Shown: piece by piece, positions 1 to 58,931 of the stretch
Layout: each line of letters starts with the position of its first letter
Position numbering within the stretch: the first letter of the stretch is position 1
Source: Acidimicrobiaceae bacterium
GTDB lineage: Bacteria > Actinomycetota > Acidimicrobiia > Acidimicrobiales > Poriferisodalaceae
Assembly (NCBI GenBank): GCA_026713105.1
Contig: JAPOPC010000039.1
Location: 1-64,000, forward strand
DNA: 64,000 nucleotides
Direction of reading: 5' to 3'
The notes under the pieces: generated by a model
What the model was told of the DNA's origin: nothing
Databases searched by the model: none
The model's input: the letters and a program-made list of their open reading frames with translations, nothing else
Translations under genes and position numbers: made by a program

Positions 1-349
1 GCTTCTTGGCTGAGCGATCCAGCGTGAAGCTGGCGTAGTACTCCTCGGAGATGTCCGACGCCTTCTCGATCCACAGTCGCTGCACGATGTGGCCGTTGAT
101 GTCGAGCCCGAGGATGTTGGCGGCATGGGTCCGCACGTCGTCGACAGTGGCGGCGAATTTGACGCCGCCTGCCTTGCCGCGCCCGCCGGTGTGCACCTGC
201 GCCTTGACCATCACCGGCGTGCCCAGGCGCTCCGCGGCGGCTACCGCTTCGTCCACGCTGAACGCAACTGCGCCGTCGGATACCGGCATGCCGTAGCCCT
301 GGAAGAACTGCTTGCCCTGATACTCGAAGAGATCCACGGCGGGGAGCAT
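1..349 (-). CDS. sucC: Succinyl-CoA synthetase beta subunit, ADP-forming (N-terminal part; runs off the window)
   Basis: This is the first 116 codons of the nucleotide-binding beta subunit of succinyl-CoA synthetase, the TCA-cycle enzyme that couples succinyl-CoA cleavage to ATP or GTP formation. The protein opens MLPAVDLFEYQGKQFF, the usual family start, and continues into an ATP-grasp domain with VKAQVHTGGRGKAGGVK at residues 48-64. The ATG at 349 is the only plausible start. The gene lies downstream of pcrA on the same strand, separated by 99 bp that contain a long inverted repeat. The C-terminal ligase half and the expected sucD are outside the window. Confidence 0.93.
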   Translation of the reverse strand, partial: MLPAVDLFEYQGKQFFQGYGMPVSDGAVAFSVDEAVAAAERLGTPVMVKAQVHTGGRGKAGGVKFAATVDDVRTHAANILGLDINGHIVQRLWIEKASDISEEYYASFTLDRSAKK

Positions 350-370
350 AGGAGCGAAGGGTTGTCGCCC

Positions 371-449
371 GCTGCGGAGGCGGCAGGGCCCTCCGCTCCA
401 GCAATCCAGCAGGTTGCAACGTCGCAGAGTTCCCCGCCGCCTCCGCAGC
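371..449. repeat. 14-bp perfect inverted repeat between pcrA and sucC
   Basis: GCTGCGGAGGCGGC at 371-384 pairs perfectly with GCCGCCTCCGCAGC at 436-449, leaving a 51-nt loop. The right arm touches the pcrA stop codon and the left arm lies about 20 nt before the sucC start. It could end pcrA transcription or act as a leader structure for sucC. There is no U-tract, so a classical intrinsic terminator is uncertain. Confidence 0.6.
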
Positions 450-2836: not shown

Positions 2837-2887
2837 GGATGCAGGCTCATCGGCGGCTCATCACCCAAGAGAGTCGTGTGCAGCGCT

Positions 2888-4084: not shown

Positions 4085-4171
4085 GATCAACCCTCGTCGC
4101 ATGCTCTCCCGCGACCCGGCCGCGGTTGTGGGGCCAAGGTAGTTGCGGTTGTGTCGAGAGCCTCTGCCAAT

Positions 4172-4843
4172 TCAGCGGTCGCTGTCGGGCACGGTGAATG
4201 GCTCGTCGATGTGCAAGACCCAGCGGGCGCGTTGACGGTTCGGATCGGCGGTGCTGGTCGCGCCGGTGGGCGACCCGGCATAGCCGACCGGCAGCACCAT
4301 GCCCCGCAGGAAGCTGGCCTCCATGGTCTCGCTGCCCCAGAACACGACCTCGTCACCGCCAGCTTCCCACCACGGCTCGCCAGGCACGCCGCCCCGGTAA
4401 CGCTCGCCGTGCTGGGAGATGTTGAAGGTGCCCCGCAGCAGGCAGCGAATCCCCGGACCGGGATGGATATGGGGATCGGAGATGTGCCCAGCTCGCGACG
4501 TGATCTGGTCGAGCCGGAACAGCCACTCGCTTCCCCGAGCCAGGTCCAGCGTGGTGATGAGCCGGCTCATCCGGTGCATGGTGAGCACGTCGGAACCCGC
4601 CAGCAGCGTGTGTGGCCTGTTGGGCAGGTCGACTTCCCAGCGCCACACCTGCGACCACTCGGCCCTGCCCGTCAACTCATATCCCGCCGAAGCCGCCGCA
4701 GACTCTCCCGCCCGGAGGATCTGCCCGTTGACGGCCACTTCGCCGTCACGCACGTACACGACCCGCGGCAACGGTTCGAGCGCCATGTCGCTGACGCCGT
4801 CAGCCATGACTTGGTCCTGGTAGAAGCTGATGTTGAACGGCAT
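4172..4843 (-). CDS. Cupin-fold protein of unknown function, paired with a ThDP enzyme
   Basis: A 223-residue protein that looks like a two-domain cupin. Residues about 20-100 form one poorly conserved half. The second half contains H120-(4)-H125-x-H127 in GHISDPHIHPGPG followed by GIRCLLRGTFNI, which resembles a metal-binding cupin motif 1. No signal peptide or membrane segment is visible. The start ATG at 4843 lies 5 nt after the stop of the upstream ThDP-enzyme gene, so the two are very likely cotranscribed. The substrate is unknown; metal binding and a link to the neighbouring enzyme are inference. A longer reading from 4900 would overlap the upstream gene and was not used. Confidence 0.75.
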   Translation of the reverse strand: MPFNISFYQDQVMADGVSDMALEPLPRVVYVRDGEVAVNGQILRAGESAAASAGYELTGRAEWSQVWRWEVDLPNRPHTLLAGSDVLTMHRMSRLITTLDLARGSEWLFRLDQITSRAGHISDPHIHPGPGIRCLLRGTFNISQHGERYRGGVPGEPWWEAGGDEVVFWGSETMEASFLRGMVLPVGYAGSPTGATSTADPNRQRARWVLHIDEPFTVPDSDR

Positions 4844-4848
4844 GGGCC

Positions 4849-6492
4849 CTACCCGCTTGGCTGCTGGCCCCGGATTCGTGGTCGCATGATGTGCGGCCAC
4901 GGGAAGGGCACCTCGCCGAAGGGCACCTCGATCACGGTCGGCTCATCGGAGCTCAGTGCTTCGCGCAGGCACGGGCGCAACTCGTCGGGCGTGGTCGCCC
5001 GCATGCCCCGGACGCCGAATGAGTCCGCCAGCTTCACGAAGTCCGGGCTCGTGAGGTCGCTGGCGATGACCCGCCCATCGAAGCGCTCCCGCTGGATCCG
5101 GCGAACGTTGCCATAAGCGTGGTCGTTGAACACGATCGTCGTCAGCGGGATCCGGTGGTGCACCGCAGTCGCCAGCTCGTTGATGGTGAACAGCGCCCCA
5201 CCGTCGCCGACAATCGACAGCACCGGCACGTCGCGCTTGGCATGTGCTGCCCCCAGCGCCGTGGCGAATCCGTATCCCAGCGTCCCCTGGTATCCCGCAC
5301 TGAGAAACGTTCTCGGCTGGTAGACGTCGTACCCGAGCCAGGACACATAACCGCACTGGGTCATCTCGTCGACGAAGATCCCTTCACCGGGCAACTCGGC
5401 CCGCATGGCGCCGAGCCAGCCGTACTGGGGCGCAAGCGCCGCGGCAGTGGCGGCTTCGGCATCAGCCCGAGCGTGCTCGAGGTCGGCGCGCCACACCGAA
5501 CGATCGGCCTGGGTGGTGCCGAGTGCATCCGAGAGCAACGGCAGCGCGTCAGCGAGATCGGCATGGATGCCCACCGTCGGCGGTCCGAAGCGGCCGATCT
5601 CATCGGCATCGATGTCGACGTGAACGATCTTGAGTTCGTCGTCGACGCCCCACGCTGACTGCTGCATAGCCATCCGGGTGCCCAGCCCGATCACCACATC
5701 GACCCGCGGCCAGAGCTGGTACGCGGTCGGCGTGGTGATGCTCAACGGATGATCCGACGGCACCACGCCGCGCCCGCTGCGGAAGGCGACGACCGGCGCA
5801 GACAGCCGCTCGGCGAGTCGGGTGACGTGCTCGGGGCACTCCTGCGCGCCACCGCCCACGACGATCATGGGTCGCTCTGCAGCTGCCATGAGCTGCGCCG
5901 CTTCGGCGACGGCGGCGTGGTCGGGCTCGGGGCCCGGTCGTGCCGGGGCAACGAGATCATCGGGCGCAGATTCGACTGTCGCACTCCAGATATCGGTCGG
6001 AACCTCCACACCGACCGGTCCGCGGCGCCCAGAGCGCAGTTCGGTCATCGCACGCTGGAGCACGGCGTGAGCACCGGCACCGTCACTGATGCGCTCGGCA
6101 TGCCGCGTGAGCCGCTCCAGCACGCCTAACTGATCGGGCAGCTCGTGGAGAGCGCCGAAACCCTTGCCGATCCCCGCAGAGGGCACCTCGCTCACCAGCG
6201 CCAGCACCGGCGCGTTGGTGGCGTACGCCGTGCTGAGCGCAGCGGCAGTGTTCAGCAGTCCGGGCCCCGGCACCACGCAGAACGCCTGCGGCTCTCCCGT
6301 CGCCAGCGCCGCGCCGAGCGCCATGTAGGCCGCTCCCTGCTCGTGACGGCTCTGGATCGGTGCCAGGGCATCACGCCGGTCGTACAGCGCATTGAAGAAA
6401 GGGTCGTTCTGCACCCCGGGCAAGCAGTACAGGTTGTCGACGCCGTTCGCGATGAGCGTCTCGACCGCCAAGCTCGCAACCGTCTGCGTCAT
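4849..6492 (-). CDS. Thiamine-diphosphate-dependent enzyme of the acetolactate synthase / benzoylformate decarboxylase family
   Basis: A 547-residue ThDP enzyme with the Pyr-central-PP domain order of the AHAS/pyruvate oxidase/benzoylformate decarboxylase family. The catalytic glutamate region is SRHEQGAAYMA at residues 48-58. The central domain begins with RPMIVVGGGAQ. The ThDP/Mg motif starts at GDG (429-431) and ends at the Asn of FNDHAYGNVR. The 2-oxoacid used cannot be read from the sequence. It is not an obvious biosynthetic IlvB, because no small subunit is nearby and its length and ends differ. The ATG at 6492 follows GGAGGGG by 3 nt. A cupin gene follows at once. A long dyad lies about 210 bp upstream and may control the pair. 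Confidence 0.88.
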   Translation of the reverse strand: MTQTVASLAVETLIANGVDNLYCLPGVQNDPFFNALYDRRDALAPIQSRHEQGAAYMALGAALATGEPQAFCVVPGPGLLNTAAALSTAYATNAPVLALVSEVPSAGIGKGFGALHELPDQLGVLERLTRHAERISDGAGAHAVLQRAMTELRSGRRGPVGVEVPTDIWSATVESAPDDLVAPARPGPEPDHAAVAEAAQLMAAAERPMIVVGGGAQECPEHVTRLAERLSAPVVAFRSGRGVVPSDHPLSITTPTAYQLWPRVDVVIGLGTRMAMQQSAWGVDDELKIVHVDIDADEIGRFGPPTVGIHADLADALPLLSDALGTTQADRSVWRADLEHARADAEAATAAALAPQYGWLGAMRAELPGEGIFVDEMTQCGYVSWLGYDVYQPRTFLSAGYQGTLGYGFATALGAAHAKRDVPVLSIVGDGGALFTINELATAVHHRIPLTTIVFNDHAYGNVRRIQRERFDGRVIASDLTSPDFVKLADSFGVRGMRATTPDELRPCLREALSSDEPTVIEVPFGEVPFPWPHIMRPRIRGQQPSG

Positions 6493-6838
6493 GGACCCCT
6501 CCGGATCAAGGCGACCGTACCCGACGCTGCTGTTCCGACCCCAGAAAGTCAACTCCGACCCGAGTCTCAGATTCAGAACCACGATGCCGCTGCCACCATC
6601 GGCAGGGCCGGGAGTTGTCGTCGATGATGCATTTGGCGGTACGACACCAAGTCCGGGGTGCGCTGAATCTCATCTATGACTGCGCTCCCGGTCAGCAATG
6701 ACTGATTCAAAATTCAATTGTGAATCAGCACACGTCCTGGCGGCACGGGCGGCATTCGCAGATCGGGCATCGGCGCGAGGTGTACCGACCCCGGTGACAC
6801 TCGGCTCGGCTATTCCTGCTCGCCGATACCCATTGCGG
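6493..6838. other. 346-bp intergenic region between guaA and the ThDP-enzyme gene
   Basis: No gene is visible here on either strand. The stretch holds the end of the guaA transcript and the probable promoter of the ThDP-enzyme/cupin operon. Its only striking element is the AT-rich dyad at 6702-6728. Confidence 0.6.
6702..6728. promoter_or_regulatory. 27-bp near-perfect dyad, candidate operator
   Basis: CTGATTCA at 6702-6709 and TGAATCAG at 6721-6728 are exact inverted arms. The 11-nt centre continues the symmetry (AATT-C-AATT) with one mismatched pair. It is markedly AT-rich in a GC-rich neighbourhood and has no U-tract, so an operator is likelier than a terminator. It lies about 210 bp upstream of the ThDP-enzyme start and 111 bp beyond the guaA stop. 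No regulator gene is adjacent. Confidence 0.5.
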
Positions 6839-45162: not shown

Positions 45163-45852
45163 TCAGGTCCGTTCCTCGGGGTCGGCAGCGTCGGGCTCGG
45201 CAGCTTCGGGCTCTTCGGCTCCGCTGGCTGCGTCGGCTTCGGCGGCAACTTCGACTTCGGCGGCGGCAACTGCGGTGACCTCAGTGTCGACCGCCTCCTC
45301 GGCAATGGCTTCGTCTGTCTCGTCGACCGCATCGTGCGCCGCTGCTTCGTCGACATCTGTCTCGGCGTCGCCTTCGGCGTCGCTGTCGGTGTCGGCGCGG
45401 CTGGCGGCCACGCGAGCTGCACGGGCAGCAGCGGCGGTTTGCGAACCCGAGGCGGCCATGCGGGCCTCGCGCATCTCGAGTTCCTCGGGGCTGAGCTGCG
45501 CCACGATCACGGTGATGTGACAGGTCTGCTTGAAGATGCGGGTCGCACGACCGCGTGCCCGCGGGCGCCAGCGCTTGAGCACCGGACCCTCGTCGGCCCA
45601 GCATTCAGCTACGTACAGCTCGTCCGCGTCGAGCTGCTCGTTGTTGGTGGCATTGGCCACCGCGCTCTCGAGCACCTTGGCCACCACCTCGGCGGCGCCG
45701 CGCTCGCAAAAGCGAAGGCGGTCCCTGGCGAGGGCCAGGTCCTCGTCACGGACGAGGTTGAGCACCACCCGGGCCTTCGAGGCAGACAGGCGGGCGTACT
45801 TGTGCGTCGCCTTCGCGCCGGCGATGACGTCGAGATCGATGAGCCCGCTCAT
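45163..45852 (-). CDS. rplV: 50S ribosomal protein L22 with a ~100-residue acidic/Ala tail
   Basis: L22 (229 aa, usual about 115) lines the exit tunnel. The core has [38 protein letters not shown] and [20 protein letters not shown]. After about residue 125 the sequence is a low-complexity Ala/Glu/Asp/Val tail ([20 protein letters not shown] and similar). Such tails occur in actinobacterial L22, but this one is long. Its start overlaps rpsS by 4 nt. Confidence 0.96.
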
Positions 45853-48003: not shown

Positions 48004-48651
48004 TCAGACCGCGGCCGGTGCTTTGACTGCGTTGCGAACGATGACCGTGCCGCCCTTGGGTCCGGGGACTGAGCCGCGAACGAGCAACAGGCCGCGTTCA
48101 GCGTCGGCCTCGACGACCGAGAGGTTCAACGTGGTGACCTTCTCGCCACCCATGCGCCCGGCCATGCGGGTGCCCTTGAACACCCGTGAAGGCGTAGCGC
48201 AGGCACCAATCGCGCCGGGCGCCCGGTGGACCCGGTGCGCACCGTGGCTGGCGCGCTGGCCTGAGAAGTTGTGCCGCTTCATCGTGCCTGCGAAGCCCTT
48301 GCCCTTGGAGGTTGCCGTCACGTCGACGAGCTCTCCAGGACTGAAAAGGTCGGCACCCAATTCGGTGCCGACCGGTACTTCACTCACATCATCGAGCCGC
48401 AGCTCTACGAGGCGTACGCCGGGATCGATCCCGGCACGCTCGTAGTGGCCGACGGTGGGCTTGTTGAGCTTGCGGGCCTCGCGGTGGCCATAGGTGACCT
48501 GGACCGCGGTGTAACCGTCTTGTTCGGTGGTGCGAACGCGGGTGACCCGACAATCATCGACGCGCAGCACCGTGACCGGGACGACCTGATTGTCGTCGTC
48601 CCAGAGCTGTGTCATGCCGATCTTGGTGGCGACAAGCGCCTTGTTCAACAT
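48004..48651 (-). CDS. rplC: 50S ribosomal protein L3
   Basis: L3 (215 aa) starts 50S assembly and approaches the peptidyl-transferase centre. [55 protein letters not shown] and [18 protein letters not shown] are diagnostic. It is here the first gene of the S10 operon, because rpsJ lies about 10 kb away next to tuf. A leader of about 250 nt with repeats and a strong hairpin precedes it. Confidence 0.98.
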
Positions 48652-48685
48652 GGGCGTCTCTCTCGGGCCTTCACCGGATTCATGG

Positions 48686-48767
48686 TCGCCCGCAAAGCGG
48701 CCGACTTCGTTGCTGGTCGCCCGCAGAGCGGCCGACCTAGTTGCCGATCGCCCGCAGAGCGGCCGAC
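48686..48767. repeat. 31-bp tandem repeat array in the rplC leader
   Basis: TCGCCCGC(A)AGCGGCCGAC-type units start at 48686, 48717 and 48748 (31-bp period), each able to form a small CCGC-nnn-GCGG stem. On the minus strand the core reads GTCGGCCGCTCTGCGGGCGA, close to the array core at the other end of the island (58498-58611) in inverted orientation. Confidence 0.88.
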
Positions 48768-48776
48768 CATGCGAAC

Positions 48777-48802
48777 GCTCCGCACGGCACTGCCGGCGGA
48801 GC
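48777..48802 (-). terminator. Strong bulged hairpin upstream of rplC
   Basis: GCTCCGC (48777-48783) pairs with GCGGAGC (48796-48802), and CGGC-ACT-GCCG forms the inner stem with one bulged base. It lies inside the predicted S10 leader and downstream of the small membrane-protein gene, so it is either the terminator of that operon or an attenuator for the ribosomal genes. Confidence 0.6.
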
Positions 48803-48913
48803 GGTTTGGAGGTTGTGCCGACTGGTTCCGCGCACCCGCTGCGTTCTGGCTTTGGGCACCCGGCCTTGCCGGACGTCGGTTCGGCGCGAGTCGTCTCGCA
48901 CCGCGGACATCAG

Positions 48914-48942
48914 AGGCTACCGAGGCGCCATCGACGCCCCAA
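48914..48942 (-). promoter_or_regulatory. Predicted S10-operon promoter
   Basis: On the minus strand TTGGGG (48937-48942) and TAGCCT (48914-48919) are 17 bp apart. The same -10 sequence and spacing occur before rpsL and tuf. It lies 12 bp past the stop of the membrane-protein gene. The S10 operon needs its own promoter, because oppositely oriented genes separate it from rpsJ. Confidence 0.55.
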
Positions 48943-48953
48943 CCCGGCGGCGC

Positions 48954-49412
48954 TCAGCGCGACTGCTGCAGCTGACCCCTCTGATACGCCGCAAACAGCA
49001 TCAATTCACACGCCAAGACCAAGTGGAAAGACGTCGGCAGGTAAGCGGTGAACCACTTGCCGGCAGCGATGCTGTCATCGCCGAACACACCGGCGTCGCC
49101 TCCGAGTCCGATGAACAGCCGCATCGACATAGCGGTGAAGTACAGGATCCCAAACCAGCCGACAGGCTTCACCCAGTTCAGCCCGAAGAGATTCTTGCCG
49201 GCGCCTATCCGCAGCGTCGCGATCGCGATGATCACCAAGATCACAAGCTGTGCCCCCAACAGCGCCGGGAACGGCAGGCTGCTGCCCTGCCATGCGTCCT
49301 GCGATGGCAGAAAGCTCACATCCCACCATCGCTGGACGGCCTGGCCTGCCACGCGTGCAAAGAACGCCAGACCCAACGCCGTGCTCACTGCGGCGAAGCG
49401 AGCATTGGTCAT
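48954..49412 (-). CDS. Small integral membrane protein of the GH3/hydroxylase operon
   Basis: A 152-residue protein with about four hydrophobic segments (AAVSTALGLAFFARVAG, FPALLGAQLVILVIIAIATL, PVGWFGILYFTAMSMRLFIG, LPTSFHLVLACELMLFAAYQ). No known catalytic motif is visible. The layout resembles small four-helix membrane proteins of unknown function. Its ATG overlaps the stop of the enolase-family gene (ATGA), so it belongs to that operon and may be a transporter helper or membrane anchor; this is inference. Confidence 0.75.
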   Translation of the reverse strand: MTNARFAAVSTALGLAFFARVAGQAVQRWWDVSFLPSQDAWQGSSLPFPALLGAQLVILVIIAIATLRIGAGKNLFGLNWVKPVGWFGILYFTAMSMRLFIGLGGDAGVFGDDSIAAGKWFTAYLPTSFHLVLACELMLFAAYQRGQLQQSR

Positions 49413-50539
49413 GGGCCCGCCGCCGGTTCGAGGAGGTTCTCAGGCCCGAGCCGCAGGCCCAGCCCGCCATTGCTGCGATCGGGCACGTCGCGGCCCCGCA
49501 GCACGCCGCCGTAGCCGAACATGATCGTCGGGTCGGTCAAGTCCCGGCTCAGCAGATGCGTTCCGAAGGCACCTTCCGCCGCGATGACGGCGCCGGGAGC
49601 GCTCGCGATGACCGCGAGTGCTGCTCGGGTGAGCAGGCTCGTCTCGCCCACCTGACATCCGACGATGACATCAATGCCTGCACGTGCCACAGCCGCCACA
49701 ACCTCCAGTGACCGAAGGACACCACCCATCTTCGACACACGAACATTGGCGATCCATCGTTGTGGTTCCGTCAACGTCTGCAACTGCTGGCTGGTCCGCA
49801 AGCTCTCGTCGGCGATGATCCTCACCTCGCAGTCACGCGCGATCCGGACACACCCCTCGATGTCGCCCGCCTGCAGCGGTTCCTCGATGGCGAACGCGAC
49901 ATCCCCCAGCGCATCGAGGTGCTCGGCACACTGCTCGGGCGATTCCCAGAGGTTGTTCGCGTCGAGACGAACAGAGGTGGAGCCCGAGCCTCGGGAGGCG
50001 AACGGGGCCAGCTTGGCGCGGTCACGTCTCAGCGAGCCCGAGAGTTTCACCTTGTAGTCGGTGAATCCCCGCGCCCAGTATCCGCGCAGCTGCCACCGAT
50101 AGAGCGGCAGCGGCATGTCGCCGAGTACTGCTGAGTAGGCCACGTCGGGCGGCCCCGATGCGACGCCGAGCAGCTGCTCGAGATTGCGGCCGTGTGCCTT
50201 GCCCAGCAGGTCCAGCGCGGCGATCTCCATGGCGCAGAAAGCAGCGGGATTCAGGTCGATGATGCCGCGGTGAGCGTCGGCCCAAGCCCACAGATCGTCC
50301 ACGCTCCCGACATCTGCGCAGAAGGACTCAGCATGCCGACGGACGAATGCGGCACAGCCGTGGACTGTCTCGCCTGTGACGTAGAGCCGCGGACACCCTT
50401 CCCCGTAGCCGGTCGTCCCTTCGGCGGAGTGCGCTGCGACGATGAGGTTCTCGGCATTGCGTCGACTCGCGGACGCATGTTTGAAGACGCGCTTGAACGG
50501 CACCGGGAAGGTGAATGCTTCGAGCTGGCGGATCTGCAC
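49409..50539 (-). CDS. Enolase-superfamily (mandelate racemase / muconate lactonizing) enzyme
   Basis: A 376-residue protein with an N-terminal capping domain and a C-terminal TIM barrel. The catalytic Lys motif is KVKLSG, the Mg ligands are Asp in RLDANN, Glu in EEPL and Asp/Glu in ADES, and the second-side Lys is in VRVSKMGG. The KxK...K pair belongs to the MLE subgroup, which includes dipeptide epimerases, N-acyl/succinyl-amino-acid racemases and o-succinylbenzoate synthase. The substrate cannot be read directly. Its neighbour makes acyl-amides, so an N-acyl amino acid epimerase is an attractive inference. It starts with GTG at 50539, 23 bp after the GH3 gene. Confidence 0.87.
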   Translation of the reverse strand: MQIRQLEAFTFPVPFKRVFKHASASRRNAENLIVAAHSAEGTTGYGEGCPRLYVTGETVHGCAAFVRRHAESFCADVGSVDDLWAWADAHRGIIDLNPAAFCAMEIAALDLLGKAHGRNLEQLLGVASGPPDVAYSAVLGDMPLPLYRWQLRGYWARGFTDYKVKLSGSLRRDRAKLAPFASRGSGSTSVRLDANNLWESPEQCAEHLDALGDVAFAIEEPLQAGDIEGCVRIARDCEVRIIADESLRTSQQLQTLTEPQRWIANVRVSKMGGVLRSLEVVAAVARAGIDVIVGCQVGETSLLTRAALAVIASAPGAVIAAEGAFGTHLLSRDLTDPTIMFGYGGVLRGRDVPDRSNGGLGLRLGPENLLEPAAGP

Positions 50540-50562
50540 GGTCGGTCCTCGTCGAGACTCGC

Positions 50563-52257
50563 TCAGTGAGCTGCCACAAACGCGTCGAAGCCGAAAGAAC
50601 AGTCGGCGAGGTATTGCAGGCGTAGGTACTTGAACTGCACGTCGCGCTGACCGTCTGCAACGCGCTGGCGACGGTAGGCATCACCTGTGCCTGGTGCAAG
50701 AAGCGTGACGCGCAGCGGAGCCAGCCGACCGCTGGCGCGTTTCGCGCCGTACTCGACGTTCGCGTCCCGCAGTGACTGCTCCACCAAGACGGCCAGATCA
50801 CCGGCGACCGTGCCAGCCGCTCGGGTGGGAGCAGTGCTCGCCAACTCCACATACAAGGTGTACGTCGCTTCGGATTCGTCGGCGAGCATGATGAAGAAGG
50901 GAGACACGGTCCCGAGTTCGGCAACCGACGTCGTGACGGCCGTGATGACCTGGGACTCATAGAGCTTCTCGCCCGTGATGCTCGTGACGCCCTTTCCCTT
51001 CTGAATGAACGACAGGACCGGGGTGCGGCCCACCCAGCCGGTCACCCTCACGATGTCGTTCATGTCGTAGCGGTACAGACCGTCGGCTGTGGTCACGATG
51101 ACGTAGTAGTCGTGCCCGAGCTCGAGGTCGGCCAACGTGCAGGTCTGCAAGCCTCGGTCCGCATCATCGGCAGCGTCTTCCCATGCGTCACGTTCTGCGA
51201 ATTCGAACACGTTGTCGGCCAGGGTGGCCACGCACGAACCCTCGATGGGATCGATGTTGACGGTGCCGCTGACCTCGCTGGCGAGGTACCCCAATTCGAA
51301 TACTGGGCAGCGCGATGTCAGCATCGGCGCGAGGCGCTCGACGGCGAGGCCGCAACTCCCTCCGGTCCACGTCACCACAGCGCGCAGGTTCTCCCAGATG
51401 TCCGCATACGTCAGCGCACCGGCGGCTTCGAGTCTCCGCCGCAGCGCTGCTGCTCGCTGCGGGTCGCGACGGATTCGGGGCTCCTCGCCGCGAATCGCGC
51501 CGGCGCACTCAGCGGGCAGCATCCCAGTCGCCACGGCGTCGATCACCGATTCGGCGTGTTCGTTGAGCACGTCCATCAGCCGGACGAACGTCGACGGATT
51601 GGCCGTCGCCATGGTGGTGACAGATCGGTCTGCAGCACCGAGCACTGCCATCGCCAGGTAGCGAGCGTCATAGTCCGTGATGTCCGACACCGATGCGGGC
51701 AGCACGTACCTGCGGCGAAGCAGCGCGCCTTGGCTCGCGTACAGCTGGCCCGATGCCGAGCCGTACGGGGTGCCGGCGGGCATGGTGCCTTCGTGGGCAG
51801 CGCCGCTCACCACGAACACCTTGCCGCCGAGCGCCGTTGTGCTCCTCGACAACGCGTATGCCGCGAGCCGCTGCAATCGCTGGATGCGAGCCAAGCCGGC
51901 TTGGGTCAGCGGAATGTTCTTCGGAGCGGCGACAGTTCCGCTGGTCTGGTTGTAATAGACCGGCGGCGCAGCGGTCAGGCACGGATCGCGGGTGGCCTCC
52001 TGCCGCTCGATCGCCTCGCGCAGGTCCTCGTAAGTTTGCACCGGCACGGCACGCCGGAAATCCTCGAAACCTGAGATGGAACCGAACCGGTGATCAGTGC
52101 CGAAGATGGTGTTGGCGTTGTCCGTCAGGATGCGCTGCAGGACGTCGTGCTGAGTCGCCGCCGGATCGGCGGAAGCCTCAATGATTCGGCGGTGCACGCG
52201 GCCGCTGGCCGCGGCCAATCCCGCGCGTAGCAAGCGGTAGCTCAATCCGTCGGTCAC
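50563..52257 (-). CDS. GH3-family acyl-adenylating amide synthetase
   Basis: A 564-residue protein of the GH3 (auxin-responsive/JAR1) family, ANL-related enzymes that adenylate a carboxylic acid and couple it to an amine, usually an amino acid. Nucleotide motif 1 is YYNQTSGTVAAPKNIPLT (about 101-118), motif 2 is ELGYLASEVSG, and motif 3 is GLYRYDMNDIVRVTGW, all in order. Known plant members conjugate jasmonate, auxin or benzoates; bacterial members are poorly studied. From the GTG at 52257 it overlaps the stop of the membrane hydroxylase gene (GTGA). A longer reading to 52533 lies wholly inside that gene and is rejected. Confidence 0.9.
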   Translation of the reverse strand: MTDGLSYRLLRAGLAAASGRVHRRIIEASADPAATQHDVLQRILTDNANTIFGTDHRFGSISGFEDFRRAVPVQTYEDLREAIERQEATRDPCLTAAPPVYYNQTSGTVAAPKNIPLTQAGLARIQRLQRLAAYALSRSTTALGGKVFVVSGAAHEGTMPAGTPYGSASGQLYASQGALLRRRYVLPASVSDITDYDARYLAMAVLGAADRSVTTMATANPSTFVRLMDVLNEHAESVIDAVATGMLPAECAGAIRGEEPRIRRDPQRAAALRRRLEAAGALTYADIWENLRAVVTWTGGSCGLAVERLAPMLTSRCPVFELGYLASEVSGTVNIDPIEGSCVATLADNVFEFAERDAWEDAADDADRGLQTCTLADLELGHDYYVIVTTADGLYRYDMNDIVRVTGWVGRTPVLSFIQKGKGVTSITGEKLYESQVITAVTTSVAELGTVSPFFIMLADESEATYTLYVELASTAPTRAAGTVAGDLAVLVEQSLRDANVEYGAKRASGRLAPLRVTLLAPGTGDAYRRQRVADGQRDVQFKYLRLQYLADCSFGFDAFVAAH

Positions 52258-53216
52258 GACGTCGCCGTCGCCTCGACGTCCCGCTTGTCGAGATCCCGAA
52301 CCAGCGGAGTGCGCATCTGGGCGACGAAGCCTGTCGGATACTTCCGGTTCAGCAGTCCGAGGCGGCCGACGGCTGTGTCCGCGGGCAGGAACCGGGTCCC
52401 GAACGCCACGTCCCAGATGATCAGGTTGTTGCCGAAGTTGTGATCGGATTCCGCCGGCAGCTCCGAGTGATGCCACCGGTGCAGTTCGGGTCCGCTGATG
52501 AGGTAATTGAGCCAACCCAGCTTCACGTCGCAATTCGAGTGCTGGTAGAAGCCGTTCAGGGCGTAGAAGACGAAATAGGCCGCGAGCACTTCATCCCCGA
52601 CGCCCACGAGCACGAACGGCAGTGCGTCGACGCAGTACTGAACAGCCTTCTCCGCCGGGTGGAAGCGCCCGACGTTCAGCCAATACAGCCGGTGCGGCGA
52701 ATGGTGCACCGCGTGCCATCGCCACATGAAGGCTGAACCGTGAAAGGCCCTGTGCAGCCAGTACCGAAAGAAGTCGGCGACGGCCATCATCAGTGCCGCC
52801 TGAAGGAAGACTGGCCAGGAGTGCGGCCACAGACCTCCGAGCGTGAGATCTCCCTCTCGCAACCAGCCGGCGAACGCCACGGTTGCTGCCAATGACAGCA
52901 GCAACGGCAGGACTACTTGGATCGTCAGCATGAACGCTGCGTCAGCCCGCAGGTCGCTGGGCTGCGGGCGCCACTCGAGGCGGTAGGGCAGGACGATCTC
53001 ATGCAGCGTGATCAGTCCAGCCCCGACCAGCACCGCCAGGTACGACGCAGCAATCACGGGCATGCCGAGCAGTCCGGCACCGGCATAGACAGCGATCCCC
53101 AACAGGATCACGACCGAATACGAGCCTCGTACCGCGAGCTTCGTGGCCGCCGATGTCGGGTCTCGTGGTGTCGGCAGCGGCGCGGCGCCCTGGTGCACCC
53201 GCTCATCCGCCGCCAT
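52254..53216 (-). CDS. Membrane di-iron fatty acid hydroxylase / sterol desaturase family protein
   Basis: A 320-residue integral membrane protein of the fatty-acid-hydroxylase superfamily. Histidine boxes are HRAFH (155-159), HAVHH (168-172), QHSN (His226) and HRWHH (246-250), the expected di-iron set. Hydrophobic segments lie near 33-70, 93-117, 137-151 and 200-222. It probably hydroxylates or desaturates a lipid using O2. It is the first gene of a four-gene overlapping operon with GH3, enolase-family and small membrane genes, and ends in a 4-nt overlap with GH3. Confidence 0.9.
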   Translation of the reverse strand: MAADERVHQGAAPLPTPRDPTSAATKLAVRGSYSVVILLGIAVYAGAGLLGMPVIAASYLAVLVGAGLITLHEIVLPYRLEWRPQPSDLRADAAFMLTIQVVLPLLLSLAATVAFAGWLREGDLTLGGLWPHSWPVFLQAALMMAVADFFRYWLHRAFHGSAFMWRWHAVHHSPHRLYWLNVGRFHPAEKAVQYCVDALPFVLVGVGDEVLAAYFVFYALNGFYQHSNCDVKLGWLNYLISGPELHRWHHSELPAESDHNFGNNLIIWDVAFGTRFLPADTAVGRLGLLNRKYPTGFVAQMRTPLVRDLDKRDVEATATS

Positions 53217-53271
53217 GGGCTGAGCCTAGGTGGGCCCACTCCCACGCCAAGGAGCGCAGCGGCCCGGATCG

Positions 53272-54297
53272 TCAGTCGCCGAGGCGGACGATGGTGGTGC
53301 CGACGGTGCGGCCTCCGAGCAGGTCGACGAATGCGCCGCCCGCAGCACCGAGCCCTTCGTAGGTGATGTGACGGGGCACGAGCGCGCCGGCCTCGATCCA
53401 CTCGAGCATCTGCGCACGGGCTTCGTCGTAGCGGCTGGCGTAGGAGAACACGAGAAAGCCCTGCATGCGCACCTGGTTGTTCACCAACAGACCCGGGATG
53501 CCACGCGGGCTGGGATCGGGATTGGCGGTGTCGTACGCCGACACGGCGCCGCAGCAGACGATGCGACCGAACGTGGCCATGCGGAACAGGGCCGAACCGA
53601 GAATCTCGCCGCCGGTGTTGTCGAAGTACACGTTGATGCGGTCAGGCGTCGCCGACCGGAACTCGGCCCGAAAGTCAGGCGAATGCCGGTTGAGGGCAGC
53701 ATCGAATCCGATCTCGCCCCTCAGGAGCTCGCATTTGTGGTCGGAGCCCGCCACGCCGACGACCCTGCAGCCTCGTGCTTTGGCGATTTGACCGGCAATG
53801 TGGCCCACCGAGCCCGCCGCCGCGGACACCACTACCGTCTCGCCTGGCTCAGGTTTCCCGACATCGAGCAACCCGAAGTACGCGGTGAGCCCATTTGTGC
53901 CGAGCACGCCGAGATGCAGCGCTGGATCGAGCGCTCCGTCGGCGACGCGCAAATCGCTGGCGTCCATCACAGCGTTGCGGCGCCAGCCGGTCGAGCCGAC
54001 CACTGTGTCCCCGACGCCGATGCCCTCGGCATTCGAAGCCTCGACCACGCCGGCTCCCGTGCCCGCCATGACCACGCCCACCTCGGGGGCGCCCGCGTAG
54101 CTGGCGCTGCCTTGCAGCCCGGCTCGCTGGCCTGCGCCAATCGTGATCGCCTGGACCCGTACCGATACCTGGCCTGGCCCTGGCTCGGGCACCTCTTCGG
54201 TCTGCAACGCGAAGTGCTCTGCGCTGAGCGGGCCGTCGGGGATCTTGGCCAGCACGACGCAGTCCGACACCCTCGCAGTCGTCGGTCCTTCAGCCAT
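53272..54297 (-). CDS. NADP-dependent MDR-family oxidoreductase (leukotriene B4 dehydrogenase / curcumin reductase type)
   Basis: A 341-residue medium-chain dehydrogenase/reductase of the zinc-free branch that reduces alpha,beta-unsaturated ketones and aldehydes. The Rossmann loop is VVVSAAAGSVGHIAGQIAKA, followed by GVAGSDHKCELL and DNTGGEILGSALFRM. HVLGTNGLTAYFGLL-like LGVLGTNGLTAYFGLLDVG is a signature of this branch. The ATG at 54297 follows AAGGAGC by 7 nt. It lies 55 bp upstream of the hydroxylase gene and may be the first gene of the same transcript. It is divergent from the molybdenum hydroxylase operon. Confidence 0.92.
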   Translation of the reverse strand: MAEGPTTARVSDCVVLAKIPDGPLSAEHFALQTEEVPEPGPGQVSVRVQAITIGAGQRAGLQGSASYAGAPEVGVVMAGTGAGVVEASNAEGIGVGDTVVGSTGWRRNAVMDASDLRVADGALDPALHLGVLGTNGLTAYFGLLDVGKPEPGETVVVSAAAGSVGHIAGQIAKARGCRVVGVAGSDHKCELLRGEIGFDAALNRHSPDFRAEFRSATPDRINVYFDNTGGEILGSALFRMATFGRIVCCGAVSAYDTANPDPSPRGIPGLLVNNQVRMQGFLVFSYASRYDEARAQMLEWIEAGALVPRHITYEGLGAAGGAFVDLLGGRTVGTTIVRLGD

Positions 54298-54556
54298 CGC
54301 TTGCTCCTTGAGTCGTCGGGAATTGTTGATGTCACCCGTCATGATTGCCGCTTGAGCGTGTCCGTTCCTCGCTGGGCAACTGCGGCTTCTCCATCGCTAT
54401 CGGGGAGGGTGACGATCGCTAACGCGACGAGGACGGTCCAGCGCAACTATCGTCCGCTGCCGTAAAGGCCATTGCCGCAAGGCGGCCTCTCAGACACAGC
54501 CGCCCACAGGCGGTGCTGAGACATATGCCGCAGAGACCGGATCGGGAGCTATCCGC
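54298..54556. other. Divergent promoter region of MDR and molybdenum hydroxylase genes
   Basis: A 259-bp non-coding region that must hold both promoters. A stem GCCGC-AAG-GCGGC lies at 54474-54486, and a larger bulged hairpin lies at 54489-54520. I see no clear -35/-10 pair. Confidence 0.45.
54489..54520 (+). promoter_or_regulatory. Leader hairpin of the molybdenum hydroxylase operon
   Basis: CTCAG (54489-54493) / CTGAG (54516-54520) enclose CCGCC-CACA-GGCGG (54500-54513). It ends 36 nt before the FAD-subunit start, so it could be part of a 5' UTR control element. Confidence 0.4.
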
Positions 54557-55435
54557 ATGAAATACGCCGCACCGACCACTATTGATGAGGCTCGGGCATT
54601 GCTCGCGAGCGATGCCGACGCCATCGTGTTCGCGGGCGCAACCGACGTCGTGCCGCAGATGCGCGGCGGACGGCCTGAGCCGTCAATGCTGATCGACCTC
54701 AAGAACATCGATCGCCTGATGTCGGTGAGCCTCGAAGGTGATACCTGGCACGTAGGTGCCGCAGCGCCCAGTTCGGCTCTCACCGCAAACGCTGACTTCG
54801 CTGCCGACTTCCCGGGAGTGACGGAGGCTGCTGGACTCATCGGATCCGATCAAATCCAGAATCGCTCGAGCCTCGGCGGGAACCTGTGCAATGCCTCTCC
54901 CGCGGCGGATTCGGTCCCGGCGCTGGTCGTCAACGATGCTGTCGCAGTGATCGCAGGAGCCGGCGGCGAGCGACGGGTACCCGTCGCCGACGTGGTGACC
55001 GGGCCCGGGCAGACCTCGCTGGCGCACGACGAGATCGTGGTGTGCTTCGAACTGGAGCGACCGGCGGCACGCACTTCGGATGCTTACCTGCGGCTCATCC
55101 CCCGCACCGAGATGGACATCGCCGTGGTGGGCGCCGGTGTCCGGCTCACACTGGACGGTGAAGGCGCCGTGAGCGCTGCCACCGTGGCGCTCGGCGCAGT
55201 CGCCCCCACCGTCGTGCGGGTGCCCGCGGCAGAAGCGGCACTCGTCGGCAGCCGGCTCGATGACGCATCGCTGGCCGCAGCCGCCGCAGCCGCCAGCGAG
55301 GCCTGCAACCCGATCGACGACAAGCGGGGCACGATCACCTACCGGCGCCAGGTTGCCGGCGTGCTCACCCGCCGAGCCGCCGGCATGGCCGCAGACCGCA
55401 TTCGAACCACCAACGGACAGAACGGAGCCTCCTGA
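54557..55435 (+). CDS. Molybdenum hydroxylase FAD-binding (medium) subunit
   Basis: A 292-residue CoxM/XdhB-type subunit that passes electrons from the 2Fe-2S clusters to FAD. It begins MKYAAPTTIDEARALLAS and has the FAD-binding signatures VFAGATDVVPQMRGG (residues about 22-36) and QIQNRSSLGGNLCNASPAAD. The C-terminal CODH-flavoprotein domain ends with YRRQVAGVLTRRA. Its stop overlaps the 2Fe-2S gene by one base (TGATG). The order medium-small-large is that of aerobic CO dehydrogenase operons. Confidence 0.93.
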   Translation: MKYAAPTTIDEARALLASDADAIVFAGATDVVPQMRGGRPEPSMLIDLKNIDRLMSVSLEGDTWHVGAAAPSSALTANADFAADFPGVTEAAGLIGSDQIQNRSSLGGNLCNASPAADSVPALVVNDAVAVIAGAGGERRVPVADVVTGPGQTSLAHDEIVVCFELERPAARTSDAYLRLIPRTEMDIAVVGAGVRLTLDGEGAVSAATVALGAVAPTVVRVPAAEAALVGSRLDDASLAAAAAAASEACNPIDDKRGTITYRRQVAGVLTRRAAGMAADRIRTTNGQNGAS

Positions 55436-55914
55436 TGAGCCGCACCCACGTGACCTGCGAGGTCAACGGCGACGCCGTTGATTTTCTGACCGAAGACGGT
55501 GAATCGCTGCTCAATGCACTGCGGGACGAGCTGGGGCTCATCGGGGCCAAGGAGGGCTGCGGCACCGGCGACTGCGGCGCCTGCTCGATCATCATGAACG
55601 GGCGCTTGCAGTGCTCGTGCCTGATCTTCGCCCCCGAAGCCGGCGGCGCCGCCATCACCACCTGTGAAGGTCTCGCCAGCGCCGACGAGCTGCACCCACT
55701 CCAGCAGTGCTTCCTCGAAGGCGCTGCGCTGCAGTGCGGCATCTGCACGCCCGGGTTCCTCATCGCCGCAAAGGCACTGCTCGACGAGAACCCCGACCCC
55801 ACCGAGACCGAAGTGCGCTACGCGCTCGCCGGCAACCTGTGCCGCTGCACCGGGTACGACAAGATCGTGCGCTCAGTGCTCGAGGCCGCCGTCCAGATCC
55901 GTACCCCAGCTTGA
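55435..55914 (+). CDS. Molybdenum hydroxylase 2Fe-2S (small) subunit
   Basis: A 159-residue CoxS/XdhC-type subunit with two 2Fe-2S clusters. The plant-ferredoxin-like cluster has GCGTGDCGACSIIMNGRLQC, and the C-terminal helical cluster has LQCGICTPGFL with AGNLCRCTGYDKIV. Starts with ATG at 55435, coupled to the FAD subunit, and lies 51 bp before the large subunit. Confidence 0.96.
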   Translation: MSRTHVTCEVNGDAVDFLTEDGESLLNALRDELGLIGAKEGCGTGDCGACSIIMNGRLQCSCLIFAPEAGGAAITTCEGLASADELHPLQQCFLEGAALQCGICTPGFLIAAKALLDENPDPTETEVRYALAGNLCRCTGYDKIVRSVLEAAVQIRTPA

Positions 55915-55965
55915 TCGACATCGGCTGATCGAGACTCACCCGACATCGCAGAAGGACACCTGAAC

Positions 55966-58239
55966 ATGAGCACCACCGAAGCTCCCGCAAGCACCGGCAC
56001 CAATGGCAACGGTGCATCGGGCTACCGCTGGGTCGGCACCCGTCCGGTCCGCCACGACGGCCTCGACAAGGTCGCCGGAAAGGCCCGCTACGCAGCCGAC
56101 CTGAACCTGCCGGGAATGCTGCACGGGCACATCTTGCGCTCGCCGCATCCCCACGCCCGGATCGTGTCTATTGACACGACAAAGGCAGCAGCGATGCCCG
56201 GCGTGAAGGCCGTGATCACCGGCGCCGACTTCCCCGAAGCGCCCCCCAAGGGCGCCACTCGCAACCTGATGTGCACGGTCATCGCACGCGACAAGGTGCT
56301 GTACAGCGGCCACGCCGTCGCTGCGGTGGCTGCATCGACTCGTCGCGAGGCCAAAGCGGCGGCCGAGGCAATCGAGGTGACCTACGAGCAGCTCCCCCAT
56401 GTGCTGAACATCGCCGATGCGATGGCCGATGGGGCGCCGGTGATTCACGACAACTTGCTCACGCGTGGCGTCGACCCCCGACCGACCGAGCCGTCGAATG
56501 TTGCGGCGCGCACCGTGTACGAGCGTGGCGACGTCGAGCAAGGCTTCGGCGAAGCCGACATCGTGATCGAGCGGGAGTTCTCGACCCAGGCCGTGCACCA
56601 GGGCTACATCGAGCCGCACGCCTGCGTGGTCGACTGCGACCAGGAGGGCAAGGCCGTCATCTGGGCCTCCTCGCAGGGTCATTTCATGGTTCGATCCTCC
56701 ACGGCCACGGTGCTCGGCTGGGACACCTCGCGCATCAAGGTCATCCCGGCGGAGATCGGCGGCGGCTTCGGCGGCAAGACCACCATCTACATCGAACCGG
56801 TGGCTGCGCTGCTGTCGACCAAGGCAGGCCGTCCTGTCAAGATCGTGATGAGCCGCGAGGATGTCTTCCGGGCCACCGGCCCCGCACCCGGCTCGATCAT
56901 CAAGATGAAGGTCGGTGCCCGCAACGACGGCACGATCACCACGGCGAAGGCCTGGCTGGCGTACGAGAACGGTGCTTTTCAGGGCATCGCCGCGATGCTC
57001 GGCTGCATGTGCGTCGTGTCGGCGTACACCCTCGATCACCTCTACGTCGAGGGCTTCGACGTGGTGCTCAACCGTCCGGTCAACGTGGCCTACCGGGCGC
57101 CATCGGCTCCTGCGGCGGCCTTCGCCATGGACTCGGTGGTCGACGAGATCGCGGCTCGTCTCGGCATGGACCCGATCGACTTGCGGCTCCACAACTGCCC
57201 GTCGCAGGGCGACCCGACGCCGTATGGCCCCAAGTGGCCGATGATCGGGCTGCGCGACTGCCTCGAAGCGATCCGCGACAGCGACCACTACCAGACTGCG
57301 CTGCCAGACGGCCAGGGTCGTGGCGTGGCCACGGGCTTCTGGTTCAACATCGGCGAGGCGTCGAGCGCAACGGTCAACCTGAACGAGAACGGCACTGCCA
57401 CGGTGATCACCGGGAGCCCTGACATCGGCGGCAGCCGAGCCTCGATGGCGCTGATGGCCGCCGAGGAACTGGGCCTCGACGTGCACTTGATCCAGCCGGT
57501 CGTGGGCGACACCGAAGTGGTCGGCTTCACCGACGTGACCGAGGGCAGCCGTGCCACATTTGCCACTGGCATGGCGGTCGTAGAGGCCTGCCGCGATCTC
57601 AAGACGCAGCTGCGCAAGCGTGCGGCGAAGACCTGGGATTGCGATGTGGAAGAGGTCGAGTGGGTGGACGGCTCGGCCGTTCACGGCCCGGGCGAGCAGG
57701 AGCCGCTGACGCTGGCCGCCATCACTGGCAACGCCAAGCGCACCGGCGGGCCGCTGGGCGCGACGGCGTCGCTGAACGCCCGCGGCGCCGGTCCGGCCTT
57801 CTCGGTGCAGGTTGCGGACGTGTCCGTCGACTCCGAAACCGGGCGGGTCACCGTCGAGCGCTACACCACGGCACAGGATGCCGGCACGGCAATCCACCCG
57901 AGCTACGTCGAAGGCCAGATGCAAGGCGGCGTCGTGCAGGGCATCGGCTGGGCGCTCAACGAGGAATACATCTACTCCGATGACGGCAACCTCGAGAACC
58001 CGGGTTTCCTCGACTACCGCATTCCGGTGGCGTCGGACCTGCCGATGATCGAGACGGTCATCGTGGAGGTGCCCAACCCGTCGCATCCCTATGGCGTGCG
58101 CGGCGTCGGTGAGGTGGGCATCGTGCCGCCGCTGCCGGTGCTGGCCAACGCCGTGGCAGACGCGACAGGAGTGCGGATCAGCGATCTGCCGCTCTCGCCG
58201 CCGCGAGTGCTGGATGCACTGACAGCGGCCGAGAGCTGA
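55966..58239 (+). CDS. Molybdenum hydroxylase molybdopterin-binding (large) subunit, active-site loop AYRAPSAP
   Basis: A 757-residue CoxL/XdhA-type catalytic subunit. EIGGGFGGKTTIY (GGGFGGKT at 265-272) is a cofactor-binding loop, and the conserved catalytic Glu is Glu716 in VRGVGEVGIVPP. The active-site loop AYRAPSAP (375-382) is neither the AYRCSFR loop of true (form I) CO dehydrogenase nor AYRGAGR of form II. It is therefore probably not a CO dehydrogenase but a hydroxylase of an aromatic, N-heterocyclic or acyl-CoA substrate. The N-terminal ~18 residues are a Thr/Gly/Asn linker. A moaD-like gene follows 30 bp downstream. Confidence 0.93.
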   Translation: MSTTEAPASTGTNGNGASGYRWVGTRPVRHDGLDKVAGKARYAADLNLPGMLHGHILRSPHPHARIVSIDTTKAAAMPGVKAVITGADFPEAPPKGATRNLMCTVIARDKVLYSGHAVAAVAASTRREAKAAAEAIEVTYEQLPHVLNIADAMADGAPVIHDNLLTRGVDPRPTEPSNVAARTVYERGDVEQGFGEADIVIEREFSTQAVHQGYIEPHACVVDCDQEGKAVIWASSQGHFMVRSSTATVLGWDTSRIKVIPAEIGGGFGGKTTIYIEPVAALLSTKAGRPVKIVMSREDVFRATGPAPGSIIKMKVGARNDGTITTAKAWLAYENGAFQGIAAMLGCMCVVSAYTLDHLYVEGFDVVLNRPVNVAYRAPSAPAAAFAMDSVVDEIAARLGMDPIDLRLHNCPSQGDPTPYGPKWPMIGLRDCLEAIRDSDHYQTALPDGQGRGVATGFWFNIGEASSATVNLNENGTATVITGSPDIGGSRASMALMAAEELGLDVHLIQPVVGDTEVVGFTDVTEGSRATFATGMAVVEACRDLKTQLRKRAAKTWDCDVEEVEWVDGSAVHGPGEQEPLTLAAITGNAKRTGGPLGATASLNARGAGPAFSVQVADVSVDSETGRVTVERYTTAQDAGTAIHPSYVEGQMQGGVVQGIGWALNEEYIYSDDGNLENPGFLDYRIPVASDLPMIETVIVEVPNPSHPYGVRGVGEVGIVPPLPVLANAVADATGVRISDLPLSPPRVLDALTAAES

Positions 58240-58269
58240 TCACCGGGGCAACCCGTCAGGGGCACATCG

Positions 58270-58518
58270 ATGGCGGTCGTTCACTTTTCGACCGACCAGC
58301 GCCAGCACACCGGCGTCACCGAGGTTGTCATCGACGCCGCGAATGTGCGCGCACTCGTACGGCAGCTCTCCGAGCTCTATCCGTCGCTGAACGCACACCT
58401 CGTCGAGACATCGTCAACCGCCGTCGCCATCGACGGCGAGATCATCCCCGATCCGATGCTCGAAGAACTCACTGCCACCTCAGAGGTGCACCTAGTCCGC
58501 CCGCTCGCGGGCGGATAG
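58270..58518 (+). CDS. MoaD/ThiS-family ubiquitin-like sulfur carrier
   Basis: An 82-residue beta-grasp protein ending VHLVRPLAGG. The C-terminal Gly-Gly is where MoaD and ThiS are adenylated and thiocarboxylated. It lies 30 bp after the molybdenum hydroxylase large subunit, so a dedicated role in molybdopterin synthesis for that enzyme is likely. A sulfur-donor role elsewhere cannot be excluded. The last codons and the TAG stop form the first unit of a 31-bp tandem array. The start ATG at 58270 lacks a strong ribosome site. Confidence 0.88.
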   Translation: MAVVHFSTDQRQHTGVTEVVIDAANVRALVRQLSELYPSLNAHLVETSSTAVAIDGEIIPDPMLEELTATSEVHLVRPLAGG

Positions 58519-58611
58519 GACAGCACGTCGCCCGCTCGCGGGCGGATAGGACAGCACGGCGCCCGCTTGCGGGCGGATAGGACAGCACGACGCCCGCTCG
58601 CGGGCGGAGTA
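58498..58611. repeat. 31-bp tandem repeat array between the moaD-like gene and rpsJ
   Basis: Units begin at 58498, 58529, 58560 and 58591 with core CGCCCGCTCGCGGGCGGATA. Each contains a perfect 7-bp stem CGCCCGC-TC-GCGGGCG. The first unit overlaps the last four codons and stop of the moaD-like gene, so the array looks like repeated duplication of a gene end. Lying between convergent genes, the four hairpins may act as a bidirectional terminator. Confidence 0.93.
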
Positions 58612-58616
58612 GCGCG

Positions 58617-58931
58617 CTAGGGCTGGACTTTGAGCTCGATCTCTACGCCGGCGGGCAGGTCGAGCCGCTGGAGCGAATCGACCGTCTTGTCGGTGGGATC
58701 GATCACGTCGATCAGGCGCTTGTGAATGCGCATCTCGAAGTGCTCGCGCGAGTCCTTGTCTTTGTGGGGGGACCGCACGACCGTGTAACGGTGCTTTTCG
58801 GTGGGCAGCGGCACGGGCCCGCGAACCTTGGCATTGGTTCGCAGCACCGTCTCGGTGATCTTCTGCGCCGACTGGTCCACGATCTCGTGGTCGTAGGCCT
58901 TGAGCCGCATACGGATCCGAGGTGCTGCCAT
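58617..58931 (-). CDS. rpsJ: 30S ribosomal protein S10
   Basis: S10 (104 aa) is a 30S head protein and the NusE transcription factor. [40 protein letters not shown] and [20 protein letters not shown] are diagnostic. It follows tuf by 32 bp. rplC, its normal downstream partner, lies about 10 kb away beyond the accessory island, so rpsJ here is the last gene of the str operon. Confidence 0.98.

Follow-up and report, generated by a model that had tools for sequence, protein, structure and literature searches.

A conserved four-gene cassette in Acidimicrobiaceae and other bacteria as a candidate route to modified N-acyl amino acids

Introduction

In the 64,000-nucleotide stretch of Acidimicrobiaceae DNA analysed here (the window), four closely packed genes encode a membrane hydroxylase (FAH), a GH3-family enzyme (GH3), an enolase-superfamily enzyme (MLE), and a small membrane protein (MEM), which raises the question of whether these genes form one unit and what that unit might make. 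Bacterial GH3 enzymes are numerous, and the initial annotation of this locus regarded them as barely studied; this no longer applies, as OlsH, a GH3-like enzyme of the planctomycete Singulisphaera acidiphila reported to make N-acyl ornithine from free fatty acid, was characterised in 2025 (PMC12493201). The authors of that report expect OlsH homologues to use other amino acids, leave open the products of other bacterial GH3 enzymes, and include one Acidimicrobiaceae GH3 in their tree; the word "hydroxylase" was not found in its main text. OlsH was the only characterised bacterial GH3 that we found in the open-licence PMC literature, in which we found no description of the FAH-GH3-MLE-MEM cassette. 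The initial annotation suggested a possible undescribed pathway; this may hold for the gene set but not for the general chemistry, a class already known since the publication of OlsH.

Results and Discussion

Organization of the four genes

The four genes lay on the minus strand in the order FAH, GH3, MLE, and MEM. FAH (52254–53216) encoded a predicted OlsE-like di-iron membrane hydroxylase of 320 aa with the histidine clusters of this group (PF04116, E 7e-29). GH3 (50563–52257), with a GTG start, encoded a 564-aa member of the adenylate-forming acyl-acid amido synthetase family (PF03321, PF23571, PF23572), and MLE (49409–50539), also with a GTG start, a 376-aa protein of the MLE subgroup of the enolase superfamily (PF13378, PF02746) that is a candidate N-acyl amino acid racemase. 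MEM (48954–49412) encoded a membrane protein of 152 aa without a named family, for which the fold model gave four helices. The FAH stop and the GTG start of GH3 overlapped by 4 nt (52254–52257), MLE and MEM overlapped by 4 nt (49409–49412), and 23 nt (50540–50562) separated GH3 from MLE, in exact agreement with the overlaps and gap of the initial annotation. The same annotation had proposed a single operon, and the minus-strand layout, the overlaps, and the recurrence of the genes elsewhere confirmed that FAH, GH3, MLE, and MEM form one minus-strand operon. A promoter and terminator scan gave 0 and 2 sites, respectively, which was not above shuffled sequences. Judged by their sequences, the kinds of enzyme were clear and none of the four genes was an established equivalog; in the NCBIfam search all equivalog cut-offs were missed, so that the substrates could not be read from the sequence.

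Presence and absence among close relatives

Among 61 neighbourhood genomes, GH3 was present in 9 of 11 genomes of the same genus (its own included) and in none of the 50 others, and MEM showed an identical distribution. Close copies of MLE (at least 78% identity) and of FAH (at least 83% identity) occurred in the same nine genomes; beyond these there were only distant homologues, at no more than 31% identity for MLE (17 further genomes) and no more than 38% for FAH (12 further genomes). Of 198 genomes sampled evenly across the class, the window's own had GH3 and none of the 197 others did. In the two same-genus genomes without the cassette (G202 and G204), similarity to the window ended at 53272, where the upstream reductase gene ends, and restarted just past the MEM stop, at 48946 in G202 and 48945 in G204; the 16 to 20 bases from the end to the restart did not align. 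The cassette thus extends over 48947–53271, to about 20 bp, and the interval first given for it, 48954–53216, was nearly exact. As this block is missing as a whole from two genomes of the same genus, the unit consists of these four genes.

In G202, only about 250 bp lay between the reductase gene and rplC. In G204 (L089, about 1300–5970), the reductase-rplC junction came after about 4.7 kb of other inserted DNA, whose ORFs matched RCC1 repeats and a nucleotidyltransferase domain, and after a second, 162-bp copy of the reductase 3' end. The reductase-rplC site appears to be a hot spot for insertions.

Recurrence of the cassette across phyla

Scanning one genome per species with patterns built from the window GH3 yielded 59 GH3 loci, among which close relatives are over-represented since the patterns came from the window's own protein; some loci were near-copies of each other, and two (L023 and L032) lay in one genome bin. 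Linkage was counted by tblastn and frame tracing, because Louvain clustering of ORFs had merged some out-of-frame ORFs and hidden some copies of FAH and MEM. FAH lay immediately upstream of GH3 at 38 of the 59 loci, and MLE adjoined GH3 at 45 (40 downstream, 5 upstream) and was not seen at 14, one of which (L055) was cut at the contig start. The initial annotation had made its proposal hinge on the genes being conserved together in relatives, and FAH, GH3, and MLE were indeed found together at 38 of the 59 loci; by record title these came from Actinomycetota, Pseudomonadota, Myxococcota, Chloroflexota, Binatota, and Gemmatimonadota. In a Latescibacterota record (L040) the locus began inside GH3, and the GH3-MLE pair was visible. 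GH3-MLE pairs without FAH also occurred (L041, L043, L046, L049, and L051). MEM was found at 30 of the 59 loci, 21 times downstream of MLE and nine times upstream of or fused to FAH, five of these nine copies being separated from the downstream GH3 by importer genes and by more than 5 kb; it was missing at 9 of the 38 FAH loci, some of them cut by contig ends.

Adjacent genes were also joined into single reading frames. FAH and GH3 formed one frame of 857 aa in L036 and one of 669 aa, truncated at the contig start, in L038; in L044, where GH3 appeared broken, MEM and FAH formed one 415-aa frame in which Pfam detected FAH only. Conservation across phyla ruled out a chance adjacency of the four genes, and the presence of the cassette in many assemblies, including chromosome-titled records (L015, L025, L029, and L031), ruled out an assembly artefact. 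Taken together, the four genes are almost certainly one conserved, exchangeable unit.

A GH3 tree was built from 45 of 60 rows, after removal of 12 near-copies and 3 short sequences, and had long branches and uneven amino-acid make-up. In this tree, all 26 rows with FAH-GH3-MLE fell on one side of a single branch (support 100/100), the actinobacterial cassettes lay within a well-supported group with proteobacterial ones (99/98), and the MLE-GH3 order occurred in separate places. Trees of FAH, GH3, and MLE were built for the window and 32 of the 38 FAH loci, leaving out L013, L021, L034, L036, L038, and L044 for a broken frame, truncation, or fusion; the main groups were common to all three trees, and many deeper forks were weak. 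Over these 33 rows, the distance matrices of the three proteins correlated at 0.932, 0.924, and 0.881, and none of 2000 permutations gave values as high. Exchange of the cassette between phyla followed by joint inheritance would be the simplest reading. Among the 34 pattern matches in viral contigs there were no GH3 relatives, and the eight plasmid records that matched did so at less than 30% identity each, with no close relatives.

Ten of the 38 FAH loci came from records with the prefixes RHO, COS, IRC, CAR, or APA, which fit the initials of sponge species named in PMC8163846, and some carriers of the cassette are thus apparently from sponges. The spread of the cassette over phyla suggests a product that is useful in a shared habitat.

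GH3 and its expected amide product

GH3 scored 185 bits against the Pfam GH3 domain (PF03321; cut-off 23.6), which places it in this family, and its nucleotide-binding motifs were intact: TSGT (105–108), GYLASE (323–328), and GLYRYDMND (393–401), the counterparts of those given for AtGH3.11 and OlsH (PMC12493201). The adenylate-forming GH3 of the initial annotation was thereby upheld as far as the motifs go, and amide formation itself is a prediction. The only NCBIfam match of GH3 was OlsH (NF052613), at 97.7 bits against a cut-off of 620, and we therefore rejected an identification of GH3 as OlsH; this cut-off was passed in none of the nine genomes with related GH3 loci. The cassette resembles the OlsH/OlsI pathway in having a bacterial GH3-family enzyme with the same three nucleotide-binding motif places, encoded in an operon with lipid-modifying genes. 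However, the partners of OlsH are OlsI, an alpha/beta hydrolase, and the methyltransferase OlsG, whereas the cassette GH3 is accompanied by a hydroxylase, an enolase-family enzyme, and MEM. According to Pfam, an alpha/beta hydrolase domain of the OlsI type was absent from all four cassette proteins, and a two-chain product resembling ornithine lipid would therefore need another gene, as the cassette has no O-acyltransferase such as OlsI. The N-acyltransferase domain of OlsB and OlsF (PF13444) was not found in the window's own genome, which is 94% complete.

The substrate of GH3 would be a carboxylic acid, and most likely a fatty acid, which the enzyme would activate as an adenylate and join to an amino acid to give an N-acyl-L-amino acid, and the product of the cassette is probably an acyl-amino acid amide. 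The PDB relatives of GH3 were 10 sequences, all of them plant GH3 amido synthetases, with which (JAR1, GH3.12, and GH3.15) it shares a whole-length domain match and the nucleotide-binding motifs, although the cassette enzyme is bacterial, lies in an operon, and is distant in sequence. As these plant enzymes act on jasmonate, auxin, and benzoates, the acid might instead be other than a long-chain fatty acid, such as an aromatic or terpenoid acid, to give a small diffusible amide, with FAH oxidising the amide or its precursor. Such a product would also suit the ABC importer genes that adjoin the cassette in two lineages and the remote MLE-GH3 pairs of L049 and L051, whose P450, MFS, and heme-oxygenase-like neighbours recall a secondary-metabolite cluster. 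However, FAH and MEM are membrane proteins, the only NCBIfam match of FAH acts on membrane aminolipids, and the sole bacterial GH3 found to be characterised is reported to use fatty acids (PMC12493201), so that we consider a small amide quite improbable and a fatty acid the preferred substrate.

The gene neighbourhood of L049 and L051, both of the Myxococcota type, comprised GH3, a heme-oxygenase-like protein, a P450, an MFS transporter, and a VanW-like protein in an order common to both, and is possibly a biosynthetic gene cluster; L055 carried a gene set of this type, and L046 only its first two genes. With heme-oxygenase-like, P450, and MFS genes beside them, MLE-GH3 pairs may serve other chemistries too.

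MLE as a candidate racemase

MLE matched 13 NCBIfam models of the enolase superfamily, all below their cut-offs, and reached no racemase cut-off. The KxK lysines, the three metal ligands, and the opposed lysine (K163, K165, D193, E219, D244, and K270) were present in all 44 GH3-linked MLEs compared (the near-complete ones among 46, two cut by contig ends being left out), and MLE thus belongs to the MLE subgroup. The initial annotation had seen epimerase-like potential in this enzyme; the two-lysine residues of racemases are present, and the reaction remains a prediction. Other members of the MLE subgroup can keep both lysines too, and membership of the subgroup does not by sequence fix the reaction.

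The structures nearest to the fold model of MLE (pLDDT 89.2) were those of dipeptide epimerases, N-succinyl-Arg/Lys racemase, and N-acylamino acid racemases, closely followed by many cycloisomerases. With the racemases (PDB 1sja and 2p88) and a dipeptide epimerase (PDB 3jva), MLE has in common the subgroup fold, the metal ligands, the KxK motif, and the opposed lysine, at approximately 20–25% identity in the fold comparison; it stands apart from them by its invariant loop residues H21, R26, R51, and Y53 and by its linkage to GH3. Dipeptide epimerases have an Asp-x-Asp motif at the end of strand 8. The corresponding place in the window MLE is E322-G-A, with E322 and G323 in 44 of 44 linked proteins, and we rejected an ordinary dipeptide epimerase for absence of Asp-x-Asp. 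Eight MLE-like proteins from relatives without a matched GH3, 25–31% identical to the window MLE, served as controls: H21, R26, R51, Y53, Y135, K270, and E322 were present in 44 of 44 linked proteins versus 1, 0, 0, 0, 0, 1, and 0 of the 8 unlinked ones, a contrast that is partly built in since the loop positions were picked for invariance in linked MLEs. The invariant loop residues were also kept by the MLEs of the five remote MLE-GH3 pairs, in which identity is about 30%, and this argues for a substrate type common to GH3-linked MLEs.

These residues would permit MLE to be an N-acyl amino acid racemase. It would then remove and return the alpha proton of the N-acyl amino acid in a two-lysine 1,1-proton transfer, leaving the D form or a D/L mixture. 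The expected product of GH3, an N-acyl amino acid, is also the kind of substrate on which the nearest racemases act; it is therefore economical to suppose that MLE racemises this product, and we would favour this over another enolate reaction. In a different use of the same fold, the amino-acid part would first be hydroxylated by FAH, and MLE would afterwards remove water or form a ring, to give an unsaturated or cyclic acyl-amino acid. MLE did match models of muconate cycloisomerase (80.2 bits, the best score), cis-3-hydroxy-L-proline dehydratase (61.8 bits), and o-succinylbenzoate synthase, GH3 is flanked by FAH and MLE within one cassette, and OlsE, the only named match of FAH, is reported to hydroxylate the ornithine part of a lipid (PMC3972451). 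We nevertheless think a dehydratase or cyclase unlikely: the dehydratase, cycloisomerase, and synthase scores were all far below their cut-offs, the opposed lysines needed by racemases were both kept in 44 of 44 proteins, and in the GH3-MLE pairs without FAH, MLE needs no FAH product.

FAH, MEM, and the proposed pathway

FAH scored 101.4 bits against PF04116 (cut-off 31), as a member of the FA_hydroxylase family, and its clusters H155/H159, H168/H171/H172, and H246/H249/H250 were invariant in 16 aligned sequences. In support of the membrane hydroxylase first proposed here, its sole NCBIfam match was the aminolipid hydroxylase OlsE (NF052566), although at 166.2 bits it fell far below the cut-off of 475. 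FAH and OlsE have the fold family and the histidine clusters in common; unlike OlsE, FAH is linked to GH3 and MLE and is fused to GH3 in two genomes. PDB sequence searches with FAH and MEM profiles gave no matches. MEM, aligned with 17 relatives, hit no Pfam or NCBIfam family at E<=0.001, and the comparison of its fold model (pLDDT 90.4) gave 247 matches, none at E<=0.001. FAH would hydroxylate the head group or the acyl chain, and MEM may be its membrane partner.

By the predicted features of its proteins, the cassette is a variant of GH3-based acyl-amino acid synthesis and is distinct from OlsH, OlsE, and dipeptide epimerases, whose tested defining features it did not show. From these features we infer that a horizontally exchanged cassette encodes three successive steps: formation of an N-acyl amino acid by GH3, its racemisation by MLE, and its hydroxylation by FAH together with MEM; for this pathway as a whole, the chances seem to us evenly balanced. 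We hold the same view of its two later steps, racemisation and hydroxylation of the product, which may or may not both take place. We put forward only tentatively, as a somewhat unlikely possibility, that the product of a mobile cassette, exchanged among phyla to which sponge-associated lineages belong, is a hydroxylated N-acyl amino acid of D configuration that represents a new class and arises by enolase-superfamily racemisation after amide formation, with MEM as a new membrane-protein family partnering the hydroxylase. If MLE is a racemase, the cassette would provide a route to acyl amides containing D-amino acids and tie the enolase superfamily to lipid chemistry. With a conserved compact unit, natural fusions, and cassette-minus relatives, the question of what bacterial GH3 enzymes produce becomes testable through four genes.

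Transport genes beside the cassette

In a gammaproteobacterial lineage (L024, L026, L027, L031, and L033), a four-gene ABC importer of polyamine type lay directly upstream of FAH, at a distance of 6 bp in L026 and L027. The importer ATPase of L024 passed the potA subfamily cut-off (361.5 versus 355.6), and its binding protein matched PotD weakly (20.9 bits versus a cut-off of 582). Downstream of MLE in L036 lay genes for a solute-binding protein and two permeases. Both sets of transport genes hint at uptake of an amine substrate. Such importers could mean that the cassette is catabolic or detoxifying, with imported amines or acids being conjugated and modified for use or disposal. This is very improbable, however, as forming an amide at the expense of ATP typically belongs to synthesis or to the inactivation of hormones, importers were mostly absent at the 38 FAH loci, and a hydrolase or further catabolic gene never travelled with the cassette; synthesis of an acyl-amino acid amide thus remains the preferred function.

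Surroundings of the cassette

In the window, the ribosomal str/S10 run was interrupted at 48651–58931, between an ORF that we take to be rpsJ-like (58617–58931) and rplC (48651), by DNA containing an opposite-strand three-gene molybdenum hydroxylase set, the reductase gene, and the cassette. In G215, a genome of the same family (L090), rpsJ and rplC were likewise separated, by about 2.5 kb. The region upstream of the cassette in L008 and L037 (positions 1–6511) was without the reductase and molybdenum hydroxylase genes and had instead an ABC transporter, a YhfX-like protein of alanine racemase fold, and a protein resembling glucosamine isomerase, as judged from the domains of L037. Between MEM and rplC, the window contained a 31-bp tandem repeat of 2.8 copies (48683–48768). 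The ORF at 45163–45852, presumably in the place of rplV by its position in the ribosomal run, encoded a 229-aa protein whose long C-terminal tail was acidic and rich in alanine.
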